From: Crambe crambe
Lineage: Eukaryota; Porifera; Demospongiae; Poecilosclerida; Crambeidae
Reading direction: 5' to 3'
Length of the DNA stretch: 64,000 bases
NCBI GenBank assembly: GCA_963924555.1
Contig: OZ004594.1
Span: forward strand, 4,495,563 to 4,559,562
The notes under the pieces are model-generated. The model ran no database searches. It had not been told where the DNA came from and saw only the letters and a list, made by a program, of their open reading frames with translations. Both the position numbers and the translations under genes were made by a program. This document shows, piece by piece, positions 19,995-28,707 of the stretch (positions are counted from its first letter, which is position 1; the number at the start of each line of letters is the position of its first letter).

Positions 19995-22900
19995 CTAGTG
20001 AGTCTCTTCCTCTCCTGCTCCTTCCTCCTCTGCCAGTAGTGCCTGAGGGAGAGGAACACACACAGATCACACAGATAATTTAAAAATCTGGCTTGCTTCA
20101 ACTGATTTTCTCATTCGTTCACTTTATTGACATTCACGTGCAAGTTAATCATGGAAGATGATGGTCTTTAGCTATATACTTACATGAGGAGCACTGCTTG
20201 TTCCTAGTGACTGAGTTTTGTAGACTAAAGTTGTGGACTGAGTAGACACTGGACTGACCGTAGGATCAGATGGAAGTCGAGATTCACTTTTTAATGCTGA
20301 AAGATAATCAGTAATTATAAGCACTTTACTTTAGCTAGTAGCTAATATTAGTTAAGTTTTAGTATCACTAAGGCATTCATAATTACCTGATGAACCTTGT
20401 GGTCGTTGTGGAATGTGTGTTCCTCTCAAAGTAGGAAGAATCAAATGGTTGGATGCTGATGTAGATTGCAGTAATGCTTCTGAATCTGTATTATAATGGT
20501 GATCATGTAACTAATAAGAAAAACGATAAAAGCTACCTTCATCATAATTTCCACGGATGGAACATTTTTCTGCATTAAGAGCTGCTTTCAAATCTGCTGC
20601 CAATTTTTCCTGCCGGCCATCCTTCAGTAAGTTGTATAAGCCTCTCCATTTCTCTGAGTAGCGTTTGCAGTGAGGAGCATTGGCCAGCCATTCTCCAATC
20701 ACATCTCGTAGGCAATCGAAATCTGAATCTTGCTTTGCTATGGATTTGATGTGACAAGGTGAGATACCAATAAGCTCAGCTATCTTCTTCCAGTAGGGAG
20801 CCAAGTCATCCAGGATTCTGATTTCTCTGTGCTCACCAGTTTCAGGGTCAAAGAACTTGATTAGTTGTAAGCTTTCAATAGTTGTATCTTCATCACAAAC
20901 AGAAGTTGTACCTATTGATATAGTAAATGAAATAACCATTTGTCCAGTAGTATACACATTTACTGGTGTATTATAAGAACATGCAGGCACCCTTTTTATA
21001 AGAATTTTGATATATTAAATGACTCACCTGACTGAGATAATGGGTTTGGTCCACTCATAGGCTGCAGGGGGGGAGGGGGGGGGGGGAAGGGGGAGGGTGA
21101 GTGTCTATAACGTATCATTATTGATGCATATTAATTTTTGACTATGCATGGCTAGTCAATTAAAAAATGCACATCAACACGCTCATATTTACCTTTCCAA
21201 ACCACACTAAGTGCTGACACTGCATTTCTACTGGTTGAGGATCTTTGAGATCGTACAGACAGTCCATTAAGTGAGGAGAGGTCTCTCTGCTGTCTACCAC
21301 ACAAAGGTGGCCCCTCCCAGGGTGAGAGGGACATTCAAATGCAAGCTGATAACTGACAGTGAAGGCATAGTTCATACAAGAGGTGACTGCATTGATAGCT
21401 GACTCAATGATTTCTCGAACAGCAGCACACACTTCATGCATTTTGGTAACAGCAGTTGGTTGTCGTGTGATGAGGATCTCATAGTAGTGTGGTCGAGATA
21501 TGAAGGTGACCTTGTCTTGATCAGCTCCAAATCGAAACTGGACTCTATTCTTCTTTATTCCTCTGATGATCAATGTGAATGAATCATTTCCAACAAGGTT
21601 AGCAATGGTGGCAGGAAAGAGACCAAGGGGTACAAACCCACACTCGTATCGAATCATCAGTGAAGCAGGGAGGAATGAATAGGAGTCGTTCTTTTGAAAA
21701 ACGAGAAGCTCTTCATTTGGAGCATTCTGAAGAACACAGGGCATGAAGTAGACCACTTTAGAACTCTTAGCATGTGAGTCCTGGGATGGATTGGATTCAG
21801 GTTGTTTGATGATAGCTATGATGTTGAGGTGTTCCAGCAGCTTCACCAATTGGAGCAGTGGTATGTAGTCACCCGAGATGTCAGCAGTAGCTCCTCTGAT
21901 ATCCTCTAGAGAGAACTGCCCTGTCTCTCTGAACCTTTCGGAAGTTGCTTTTTCCACTTTACCAAACTTGAATGTGTTGACAATCAGACTGGACACACTG
22001 TCATAAACAATCTGTATGTCAGAGATGATGGTGTCCTGGAGCTCAGGTAGGTTGGGGAAGTACATCAGGGTTCCTGCACGATGGTGGAGAAACCACAATG
22101 CTAGTTCGGTTTCCTCTGCTGACATGTTGAGTTTCTGTGCCCAGATGAGGCAATCTTCAAGGCTGACGGTCCTCTTTTGTTGCTTACGAAGATAGAGACT
22201 CAGCACAAGCCATGCTGCAGGAATTTTGATCTTCCTGTAGTGCTTCTGCATGTGCTCTTCGAAGAATTTCCGAAGAGTATCGACTTCCTCTGCCCCTCCA
22301 CTTTTGTTATCAATGGCAAGAATGAGACGATTATCTGATGCAAATTGAACAAGACCTTCCTTGTAGAAATTGGTAGCTCGAATTCTCTCTTGGAGTTTGG
22401 CATCAAATTTTGCAATATGTTCTTCACTCACTAAATCCTTGTGAGTGGCAACTATAAAGGCTTTCGATTGTATAGAAGCCATGATATCTGGAAAAAATTC
22501 CTCTTTTCTTTCAGATTCAGAATTAGTAAGGCAAGCAATGGCAGAGAGAGCTTGGAACATCACCTCCTCTACAGTGTATGTAGACTCTACTGGTATGGTG
22601 GACTCACCTGATGGACCTAGGTAAGATACAGTATAGCTGCTCTGGAGCTCTTGAGTCAGCTTACAAAAGAGAAGGTAAAGGGCAGGACCAATCACAAATG
22701 CTGGAAGCATGTCCATGAACTCTGGCCGGCCACCTGTGTCTGGCATATTCAGGAGAGCTGTATTCTCCAGAAGAAACTTGACTTCCTCCCAATTGGTGGT
22801 AGCAGCTTCTTGGAAAAAATCGAATATTTCATTATCGGTCATCGCCAAATCAGTGTTTGAATCAGTATTGACTTCTTTTTCGTCATTATTCCTTTCCTCC

Positions 22901-26273: not shown

Positions 26274-28707
26274 CTATTAATGATGCCTTGAATACCTTAT
26301 AACCAGATATCACTAGTATTCCTGTTGGGATAACAGTGGAGGACGTAGTTGTACCTTTAACAGGCAAGTTCCCCACAAGCTGCCAGGATTGAGTGATGGG
26401 GGAGTAGGCATGGATATCGGATGAGGGTAACGTGAATTGGGGATTGGGGGAGAGGAAATATCCTCCTAAAGACAAAAGGTGACGATGAAATGTCATATAA
26501 CTTGAGGAGTAGAGAGGGACTTGAGAAGTTTTCCACAGAGTATCATTAGATAAGGATGACAGGAGAGAGTCTAATTTGCAGTAAAAAACAGACTTGTCTT
26601 GTTCTTTAATTAAGTACAAGATCCCATCATGGATAGTGTATTGCAGAGAGAAATATTTATGAGGTAGAGGTTGCACAACTGACCATTCCCCCTGCACAAA
26701 TACCTCAACTGTATTTAATGGACCATGATTATATCCACCTGCAACGACTATACACTCTGTTTGACTCTGCTTAAGTTGAGCATTGATGGCTGATGAAGAG
26801 CAGCGTGATGATCTCATTGGAGGCAGAGATGACTGCCATTCAATTTGTTCTGTTCCAGTAGTCCACACCTCATTGGTACACATGCCACTACAAAAAATAA
26901 ATGTCAAAATTACCCTCCAGGATTAAAATAACTAGTCCCTACTTTGATCATCTTTAACCTCAATAGAATTAGTTCTCATAATAATTAGCTTTATGAAATG
27001 AACCACCGATATTTCAACCAGAATACTCTAGTCTTCATCAGGGTCAGTGGTTTGTTTCATAAAGCTAATCTTTATGAGAACTAATTCTATTGAATTTTAT
27101 CATGTTAGCTGAGAGAAATAAGATCTTTAACCTCTCTTAGTTATACTACCCATAAAATTACTGAAACGGTCATTATTACAGCAGATGTTAAAATGTCCAT
27201 AGCTAATAGCTATTAAGCTGATTGTATCACCTTAATTCAACCCAAGATAAACATATTATTCATGACACCTTAATTAAACCCATTCTGGAAGTACAGCTTC
27301 TTAATAAATAGCCACCATTGATACTAAGTAGTATAGATGAAGAGTTTGCAGTCTGGTCAGAATAACCTGCATGGTCAGAATGACTCAGCATCATGGGTAA
27401 GTATGGTCAATATTAATCACTGGTTACTTTGATATACTTACAGGTTCAAATCTACCCCTTGATCTAGGTAAAGCTACCACTGTGATAAAGGTTATAACAC
27501 CACCTATTATATGATAGGTCACAGTAATCTCAATGATGGTTGAAGTAACCATGTTCAGTAGTCAAATATACCACCTACTACTAGAGGTTAGCATAACTTT
27601 CATTTCTAAAATAGTTATTCTGACCAATCCGTTTCAAACCCAAATATTGGATTATCCAGGCGCGTAGCCAGGGAGGGGCTCAGGGGGCTCAAGCACTCCC
27701 TTTGAGCTGCACTGGATGTGTAAATAGCTAGCTAATTAACAGACCAAGATCTACCAATCTACGTACTTACTAATAGCATACTAATAATTTTCTCCAAGTG
27801 CTAAACTGTAAAAACTCAGTGGCGTATCTAGAATTTGAGCTAGGAGGGTGCTTGCTAGCTAGATAATGCGCGCGTGAAATTTTTGCGAACCACGCCCACT
27901 TTTGATTAACCACACCCTCTTTATTATACCCAGATGATGGCCTAAGTATTAGCTACCCTACTTTACCATCAGAAGTGAGAAGATACTGGTGTAGACTGAA
28001 TAAAGAAGCACAGAAATTTTAGATCGAGATGTGCATTATTTAGGGTTAAAACGTGCCGGGCGCATGCGCCTCGCCGATGTGATTATTGAACTCTGACCCA
28101 ATGCTGCTCTTTCTGTAAGTGTAATATTAAACTCTTGCTAGATGATCAGCTTTAAATAATTGGATAGATAACTATAGAAGCGAGCCTACTGAAAAAGCTA
28201 GCTAGCAGCTGAGGGGGGTGCTCGAGCACCCTGAGCACCTCGCTAGATACGCCACTGAAATTTTTTGCGCTTGTTTTATAGCAACTACTTCTGTTAACGC
28301 TATAGCTAGTTACTCTATTAGTTCAAAGGTCGACTAATGATAATTGGGCGGGGAATAGCTAGTTACAGTTTTGCATCAAGGGTGTGGTTAGGGAAAGTGG
28401 GTGTGGCTAGGCGAAGAATTTCCACATGCAATATTTCAAGCACCCTCTATGATAAAATCCTGGCTACACACCTGTACTCCTCCCCACCAATCAGCACCAG
28501 CTGGGAGTGGTAGGTGGTGAGTGCATAGCCTTTGACGGGTGTTTCAAAAACACTCCAAGACTTCAGATCAGAAGAAACAGACAAGTTGTCACCTCCCACA
28601 TAAATCTTGCCATGCAGTGATACACAACATCGGGTACCAAATGTATGCTCAGGAAGTTCACAGCATTCCTCCCAGTGAAGTTCTGCTAGAGGATGGAAGA
28701 TATCAAC
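26274..28707 (-). CDS. Kelch-repeat exons, probably the 5' part of the GTPase gene
   Basis: Two exons, 28707-28472 and 26887-26274, join in phase (codon AG/T). They encode about 280 residues with kelch blades: repeated short hydrophobic strands with GG doublets and distal Trp, for example LVLIGGEEY, ECIVVAGGYN, HRHLLSLGGYF and GILVISGYKVFKASL. Between blades are patterns such as WQSSLPPMR and WQLVGNLP. The exon ends in phase 1 at a GTGAGA donor, and the next downstream exon, 24977-24824, begins in the matching phase. I could not find the first exon(s) or the ATG upstream of 28707. If the join is wrong this is a separate kelch gene reading on to a stop at 26158. Confidence 0.7.
26961..27091. 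mobile_element. Palindromic MITE in kelch intron
   Basis: CAATAGAATTAGTTCTCATAA at the left end is repeated inverted at the right end. The arms extend about 45 bases, through TTAGCTTTATGAAA. No target duplication was identified. Confidence 0.7.
27657..28474. mobile_element. MITE with CAGGYGYGTAGCCAGG ends, abutting a splice donor
   Basis: The left end CAGGCGCGTAGCCAGG (27657) is matched inverted by CCTGGCTACACACCTG ending at 28474. Read on the minus strand, the right end is CAG/GTGTGTAGCCAGG, and the kelch exon stops exactly at this CAG. The element therefore supplies the intron's first bases. It contains the nested element 27817-28257. No target duplication is evident. Confidence 0.65.
27817..28257. 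mobile_element. Nested MITE with CAGTGGCGTATCTAG ends
   Basis: A perfect 15-bp inverted repeat is at both ends. The flanking pentamers AAACT and AAATT differ at one base. The left interior has GAGGGTGCTTG and the right interior GGGTGCTCGAGCACC. Noncoding. Confidence 0.7.

Follow-up and report, generated by a model that had tools for sequence, protein, structure and literature searches.

A probable kelch–Roc–COR–Death gene

We analysed a stretch of 64,000 nucleotides from the genome of the sponge Crambe crambe (contig OZ004594.1, positions 4,495,563 to 4,559,562 of assembly GCA_963924555.1; hereafter the window), the minus strand of which carries, from 29277 to 19995, a chain of nine exons encoding kelch repeats, a Roc-like GTPase, a COR domain and a putative Death domain. 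Reading of the splice borders joined these exons into one frame of 1252 codons followed by TAG, with GT-AG borders at every one of the nine and phases that match throughout. A first-pass annotation, made from the letters of the same DNA, had placed the borders 28707-28472, 26887-26274, 23411-21193 and 20911-20537 and the stop at 19995, all of which were right and are chained by splice borders and phases, but it had overlooked the start exon at 29277-29257 and a 34-nt exon at 21061-21028. The basal-animal host that it supposed is indeed a sponge. The parts of the gene are as follows.

29257..29277, minus strand: exon 1, with the ATG, encoding MGEQENK and ending in phase 0 at a GT donor
28472..28707, minus strand: exon 2, first part of the kelch propeller
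26888..28471, minus strand: private intron of 1584 bp between exons 2 and 3, repeat-bearing
26274..26887, minus strand: exon 3, remaining kelch propeller, ending in phase 1
24824..24977, minus strand: remnant of a middle Death-like exon, excluded from the gene model
21193..23411, minus strand: exon 4, Roc-like GTPase and COR, 2219 nt open, with GPSRLGKTT, DTGG and THKD
21028..21061, minus strand: exon 5, 34-nt microexon setting the frame for the Death domain
20537..20911, minus strand: exon 6, Death domain, weak Pfam match
20387..20485, minus strand: exon 7, low-complexity tail, placed by phase and splice sites
20184..20296, minus strand: exon 8, Ser/Thr-rich tail, placed by phase and splice sites
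19995..20042, minus strand: exon 9, acidic end and TAG stop

Exon 5 is needed because the Roc-COR exon ends in phase 0 and the Death exon requires phase 1, and its 34 nt, with their AG and GT borders, are conserved in all six aligned loci (the window's included). The surroundings of exon 1 include a 48-bp stretch found with 87.5% identity upstream of the kelch exon of the paralogue C1a, the only one of seven tiled paralogue loci (C1a, C1b, C1c, C2a, C2b, C5a and C6a) in which blastn matched it. Stretches similar to exon 7 are present in some paralogue loci (L044, L052 and L053).

Domain content of the exons

The kelch repeats are clear. Exon 3 matches the Pfam profiles Kelch_6 (1.5e-10) and Kelch_1 (6.6e-9) above cut-off; exon 2 matches no kelch profile by itself, and joining it to exon 3 raises the score (Kelch_1 40.7 bits, Kelch_6 38.5 bits, each above cut-off over two stretches). 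A Pfam scan of the exons gave neither a kinase nor an ankyrin match, which agrees with the first-pass description of kelch repeats in that place and no kinase.

Exon 4 carries the P-loop GPSRLGKTT, DTGG and THKD in this order, as had been claimed, with approximately 190 residues from the P-loop to DTGG. The position that follows DTGG is occupied by Arg in the window copy, by Gln in C1a, C1b, C1c, C2a, C2b and C5a, and by His in C6a; we take the corresponding place to be the catalytic Gln61 in Ras and Arg1398 in LRRK2. The assignment of the exon to the Roco superfamily leans on its relatives. The COR-A profile passes its cut-off, at 36.0 bits, in C1:5303310 and C1:5725355 (68% identical, from the Roc-COR exon search), and matches at E <= 1 in all five members of an alignment (A1), so that the sequences point to a COR domain in this family. 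A Roc profile match was obtained in one of these five, the distant member P0005 (37.0 bits against a cut-off of 27), whose exon scores above cut-off for both Roc (4.6e-9) and COR-A (4.4e-16), and to which exon 4 aligns by BLASTP at E 2e-21 with 23% identity over about 500 residues. When P0005 was added to a family profile, a search of the PDB brought up 4wnr, presumably an archaeal Roco protein (5.7e-5 overall, single stretches weak), together with the Roc domain of LRRK2. No NACHT or NB-ARC profile in Pfam matched exon 4 up to E = 10.

For the Death domain, the C6 homologue of exon 6, which is 31% identical to it, matches the Pfam profile above cut-off (23.9 bits), and the corresponding exons of two paralogues match at 0.0039 and 0.012, below cut-off.

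A family of genes with the same order

The searched genome comprises 143.14 Mb in 119 contigs, and a search with the Roc-COR exon gave 61 scored loci out of 488 candidates, the window's own included. At 42 of these 61 the Roc-COR exon has a kelch exon of its own on the same strand, at most 6 kb upstream; at 35 a Death exon lies within 3 kb downstream, and at 30 (the window among them) both are found. None of the 61 had a listed kelch exon within 8 kb on the opposite strand or within 3 kb downstream on its own strand. These distance limits were chosen after a first look at the data, each kelch exon was assigned to one Roc only, and the count drew on 48 of 136 kelch matches (weak and most broken ones excluded) and on 33 of 73, 2 of 150 and 21 of 150 Death matches; a first count, with wider limits and fewer Death matches, gave 45 loci with kelch, 14 with Death and 11 with both, of 61. 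All seven tiled paralogues have the order kelch, Roc-COR, Death on one strand. The window gene is no solitary fusion but belongs, in reduced form, to a family of dozens.

The kelch, Roc-COR and Death parts very probably form one gene encoding a single polypeptide, as the first-pass annotation proposed, given the continuous frame and the recurrence of the same order at 30 loci. Two adjacent genes, a stand-alone kelch gene and a Roc-COR-Death gene starting at an internal Met before the P-loop, would suit the stop that the kelch frame meets a few codons past the donor in six of the seven tiled paralogues, and the first Met of exon 4 does lie just ahead of the P-loop, but this arrangement is improbable: the kelch exon ends at a nearly identical residue with a same-phase GT donor in all eight loci where it was located (GTRAG in seven of the eight), the acceptor phase of exon 4 is identical in the seven loci where it was located, conservation of the exon 4 protein starts at that acceptor and not at the Met, and the upstream kelch exon is on the same strand at the 42 loci counted above.

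Exons with COR-A far outnumber the kelch-Roc-COR-Death family in this genome, with 150 scored from 339 candidates and all but one above cut-off. We read by eye the upstream regions of relatives on C18, C1 (8.4 Mb) and C9 (5.2, 6.0 and 5.0 kb respectively). In the 5.2-kb region (L076) no N-terminal partner was assigned by this reading. At C1:8405600-8411600 (L077, with L041) a different Roc-COR exon (DCGGQP type) is located upstream of a Death exon that shares 83% identity with that of the window, and the array at C1 8.4-9.2 Mb seems to reuse the window-type Death exon with another switch. At C9:7569500-7574500 (L078) an ankyrin open reading frame (ORF; 2601-2906, minus strand, Ank 7.8e-12) lies upstream of, and on the same strand as, the Roc-COR relative C9:7567423-7569537, which perhaps has ankyrin in place of kelch. 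A search for prokaryotic relatives gave 159 pattern matches, none of which was confirmed.

A fuller architecture and a reduced copy in the window

Six of the seven tiled paralogues (C1a, C1b, C1c, C2b, C5a and C6a, not C2a) have an extra exon between kelch and Roc, which was recovered from 17 of 18 C6 kelch loci examined as well. This middle exon has no significant Pfam match; we call it Death-like because it resembles the last exon (24-30% identity at several loci, the best E in a small search being 2.8e-7). Six of the seven have yet another exon beyond the Death exon, of one type in C2a, C2b, C1c and C5a and of another in C1a and C1b; among the matches listed none was found in C6a. The last exon of C1a, of the second type, matches the Death profile at 2e-7, above cut-off, and exons of the first type match at 0.00079 and 0.0033, below it. 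The fuller form of the family thus appears, from these exons, to be kelch, Death-like, Roc, COR, Death and, in some copies, a second Death domain.

The window copy is a shortened member of this family, perhaps a decaying one. Of the middle exon it retains only a remnant at 24977-24824, made up of two 28-residue pieces with 82 and 86% identity to the intact C2b exon. The remnant was rejected as a coding exon, as its 154 nt would break the frame, and omitting it keeps the frame, since the phase is 1 both at the end of kelch and at the start of Roc. A search of the window for the second C-terminal Death domain, with both types and at E up to 1, returned only a weak match to exon 6 itself.

A private intron within the kelch propeller

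The stretch homologous to exon 2 is present in all 29 other kelch loci examined. The sequence that separates it from exon 3 in the window (26888-28471) has an inner 440 bp matched at 39 other places (40 scored of 778 candidates). At the donor the sequence reads CAG|GTGTGTAGCCAGG, and the first bases of the intron belong to an inverted-repeat end, CAGGTGTGTAGCCAGG (inverted repeats I2 and I5). Apparently the intron was gained recently through mobile DNA, with the donor supplied from inside the inverted-repeat end of the element. Were the insert left unspliced, the kelch frame would stop shortly after 28472 and the gene would be dead.

Selection and exchange of the kelch exons

The ratio of nonsynonymous to synonymous substitution rates (dN/dS) was calculated for the window gene against close paralogues with our own Nei-Gojobori script, covering six of the seven paralogues for Roc and COR (C5a is broken) and four of the seven for Death, some having been missed by the motif search. 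The ratio was lowest in COR (0.21-0.25, five comparisons), with 0.31-0.33 in Death (four comparisons) and 0.43-0.52 in Roc (four comparisons; 0.32 against C1b); against the distant C6a it was 0.39 for kelch, 0.31 for Roc and 0.18 for COR. The low values for COR and Death suggest that protein function was retained after duplication, and the window copy appears to have evolved under constraint that is weakest in kelch.

A different pattern was seen in a C6 sample of 18 of approximately 30 kelch exons (mostly between 8.39 and 8.67 Mb, with a few near 3.2 and 8.17 Mb), in which dN exceeded dS in 143 of 153 pairs. In nine disjoint pairs, picked by smallest divergence, dN/dS was 1.71 (518/6111 against 96/1887, p = 3e-7), compared with 0.79 +/- 0.07 and a maximum of 0.98 in 300 runs of a neutral simulation on the same sequences, and the first 85 residues of C6 Roc gave 0.36 (eight pairs). 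Masking the neighbours of gaps lowers the kelch ratio to 1.30 (p = 0.037), and with single-change codons only it is 0.95 (p = 0.66); the simulation covered the unmasked value. It is likely that the C6 kelch exons have been diversifying, although part of the signal comes from indel-rich loops of uncertain alignment.

Exchange of kelch independently of Roc, for which two sets of paralogues argue, is the clearer of the two patterns. C6 copies with two very different Roc classes have almost the same kelch, the median kelch dS being 0.064 in 70 pairs whose Roc dS is at least 0.5 or incalculably large and 0.061 in the 66 pairs below that value. Outside C6, C1c and C2b are 93-100% identical (400-base windows, gap columns excluded) for about 6.8 kb from just past the middle Death-like exon to the end, 86-93% around that exon and 83-85% in kelch, and are unalike upstream, and in C1b the Roc half is distant from those of the sister copies (dS 1.3-1.6) but the kelch is close to theirs (0.16-0.24), and the Death exon differs from that of C1a by a dS of 0.04. 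By analogy, this suggests an exchangeable kelch sensor mounted on a GTPase-Death relay, NLR-like in its logic.

Other features of the window

Three single-exon ORFs resembling aldo/keto reductases (4003-5043, 5856-6881 and 9242-10456; Pfam 1.1e-38 for the first and 1.1e-43 for the third, the second recognised by eye) lie in the window, the third of them on the minus strand and with a duplicated C-terminal stretch. Sulfatase-like neighbours lie at 11595-13244, 13696-15324 and 16338-17924 (Sulfatase 1.1e-41 for the first and 4.6e-42 for the third, the second again by eye). Near the gene are SRCR-type ORFs at 38406-39041 (SRCR 3.3e-23) and 46634-47098 (by eye), and an ORF at 33726-34583 with a Ulp1-like peptidase (6.2e-5) and a PHD finger (1.2e-7) is possibly of mobile-element origin. 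Rfam gave no match within the 64-kb window.

Predicted function and competing explanations

On balance we favour the reading, drawn from the sequence, that this is a sponge gene of the Roco superfamily with the order kelch, Roc-like GTPase, COR, Death, a shortened member of its family, predicted to couple sensor, switch and output. A cue bound by the kelch propeller would alter the dimer geometry or the nucleotide state of the Roc-COR unit, after which the Death domains would bring in adaptors of the Death fold, leading to defence or cell death; NLRs do the same with another NTPase. With the middle Death domain lost and no second C-terminal one detectable, the window copy would signal through its single Death domain. 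NACHT and Roc-COR belong to different lineages of P-loop NTPase. A sensor-switch-adaptor protein was also the first-pass suggestion, and it fits the kelch exchange and the fast kelch evolution; its part in innate or death signalling is something we infer.

Several results weigh against this reading, beginning with the domains of the window copy itself. Exon 4, labelled ROC-COR-like in the first pass, matches COR-A at 1.6e-5, 25.3 bits with a cut-off of 35.3, and has no Roc profile match in Pfam up to E = 10. Its BLASTP alignment with P0005 begins at about DTGG and omits the P-loop, the two P-loops aligning only in the multiple alignment, and a PDB search with a profile of four family members without P0005 returned nothing up to E = 10 (a search by the exon 4 sequence alone gave one unrelated match, at 0.097). 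Exon 6 matches the Death profile at 0.036, 14.6 bits with a cut-off of 22.6; a PDB search with a profile of four Death exons gave four unrelated matches at 0.26 or worse and no Death domain. Single-sequence AlphaFold2 models were of low confidence both for exon 6 (mean predicted local distance difference test score, pLDDT, 59, with no Foldseek match at E <= 0.001) and for exon 4 (mean pLDDT 34). In the family at large, a kelch exon belonging to the locus itself was not found within 6 kb at 19 of the 61 loci, and at nine of the 30 complete loci at least one match contains an in-frame stop (six in Death, three in Roc-COR), so that part of the family is decaying or the matches overrun the ends of exons.

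The remaining points bear on two other explanations. Decay of the window copy into a pseudogene seems unlikely to us, although its middle Death exon is broken (about 46 codons lost and the frame disrupted), no second C-terminal Death match lies beyond exon 6, other copies are broken as well, such as C5:7274867 (two TGA) and C2:116034 (TAG and TAA), and its kelch halves, contiguous in all 29 of the other loci, stand 1584 bp apart owing to the private 1.6-kb insertion with its dispersed repeat. Against this, the 1252 codons contain no stop and the splice sites are all canonical, the insertion can be removed at GT-AG with the frame unchanged, the exons that flank the lost one meet in phase 1 so that skipping it keeps the frame, and the COR and Death ratios (0.21-0.33) are similar to those of other copies. 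Somewhat less unlikely, but still doubtful, is an ordinary, non-immune role in the cytoskeleton, adhesion or trafficking, in which case the expansion and the kelch divergence would reflect tandem duplication, conversion and relaxed constraint. Kelch and Roco proteins often have such roles. The kelch dN/dS of the window group would fit (0.62-0.93 in six close comparisons, all below 1), and so would the C6 kelch estimate from single-change codons (0.95). However, the unmasked C6 value does exceed the neutral simulation, with the start of Roc on the same contig held at a far lower ratio, and the Death domains point to Death-fold signalling.

Relation to known Roco proteins and NLRs

Reviews divide Roco proteins into LRR-Roc-COR (LRR, leucine-rich repeat), LRR-Roc-COR-kinase and DAPK1 (PMC6337361, PMC6320773). 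DAPK1, of Roco group 3, resembles the window family, as predicted here, in having Roc-COR followed by a C-terminal Death domain, in lacking LRR and in being restricted to animals (PMC6337361, PMC6320773). It differs in its N-terminal kinase and ankyrin repeats, in place of which the window family has kelch and lacks a kinase; the family also numbers dozens of copies, and relatives of the window gene have the additional Death-like exon. The first-pass annotation drew the parallel with DAPK1, but DAPK1 is not the only kin, as Roc-COR proteins with Death, TIR or CARD are also reported from sea anemones and placozoans. The sea anemone proteins NG1 (LRR-Roc-COR-TIR_2) and NG3 (kinase, Roc-COR, SH3, Death, TIR) likewise join Roc-COR to immune domains in a non-bilaterian, whereas kelch is not named in the available text (PMC5094078). 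Placozoans have at least 17 ROCO genes, in which the partner domains are LRR, TPR, CARD or Death; they have Death-fold partners in common with the window family but are fewer, and the accessible part of the source does not mention kelch for them (PMC11378527). A propeller beside Roc-COR is found in the Dictyostelium and metazoan Roco group with WD40 or kelch, which, unlike the window family, has LRR and kinase and for which the portion available names no Death domain (PMC6320773).

Expanded repertoires offer two further comparisons. The LRR-ROCO candidate immune receptors of brown algae are an expanded ROCO family with exon-shuffled, diversifying sensor repeats, although the sensor is LRR and there is no Death domain (PMC11378527). 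The NLRs of sponges (NACHT-LRR with Death or CARD) combine sensor, NTPase switch and Death-fold output and are expanded in these animals (PMC12909245), with NACHT and LRR where the window family has Roc-COR and kelch. The Dysidea avara NLR paper mentions neither kelch, Roc nor GTPase, and COR once, in a figure legend of domain names (PMC12909245). A comparative study describes bacterial GTPase-COR proteins that are DAPK-like and, for the sponge Amphimedon, expansions of Death-like/TRADD-N (PMC8195603). As a weak lead, microbial stimuli reduced the levels of transcripts called kelch motif-containing in two other sponge species (PMC6208332). Kelch in this position was called uncommon in the first-pass annotation, and no description of a kelch-Roc-COR-Death architecture was found in the available portions of the openly licensed PMC literature, yet kelch beside Roc-COR is mentioned in a review (PMC6320773).

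It may be, and we suggest it tentatively, that tens of kelch-Death-Roc-COR-Death genes in arrays form a second NLR-like repertoire in sponges, in which recombination would move kelch exons between switch modules and selection would push them to diversify, so that recognition would vary on a conserved GTPase-Death relay. The family is large and recombining, unites a plausible sensor with a switch and an output in one polypeptide and comes from a sponge with a chromosome-level assembly, which makes it a test case for the diversification of intracellular recognition in animals without adaptive immunity and in microbe-laden filter feeders. It would make approachable the questions of whether kelch variation tracks microbes or self, whether GTP state gates the assembly of Death domains, and whether Roco switches may have been used for immunity as NACHT has.

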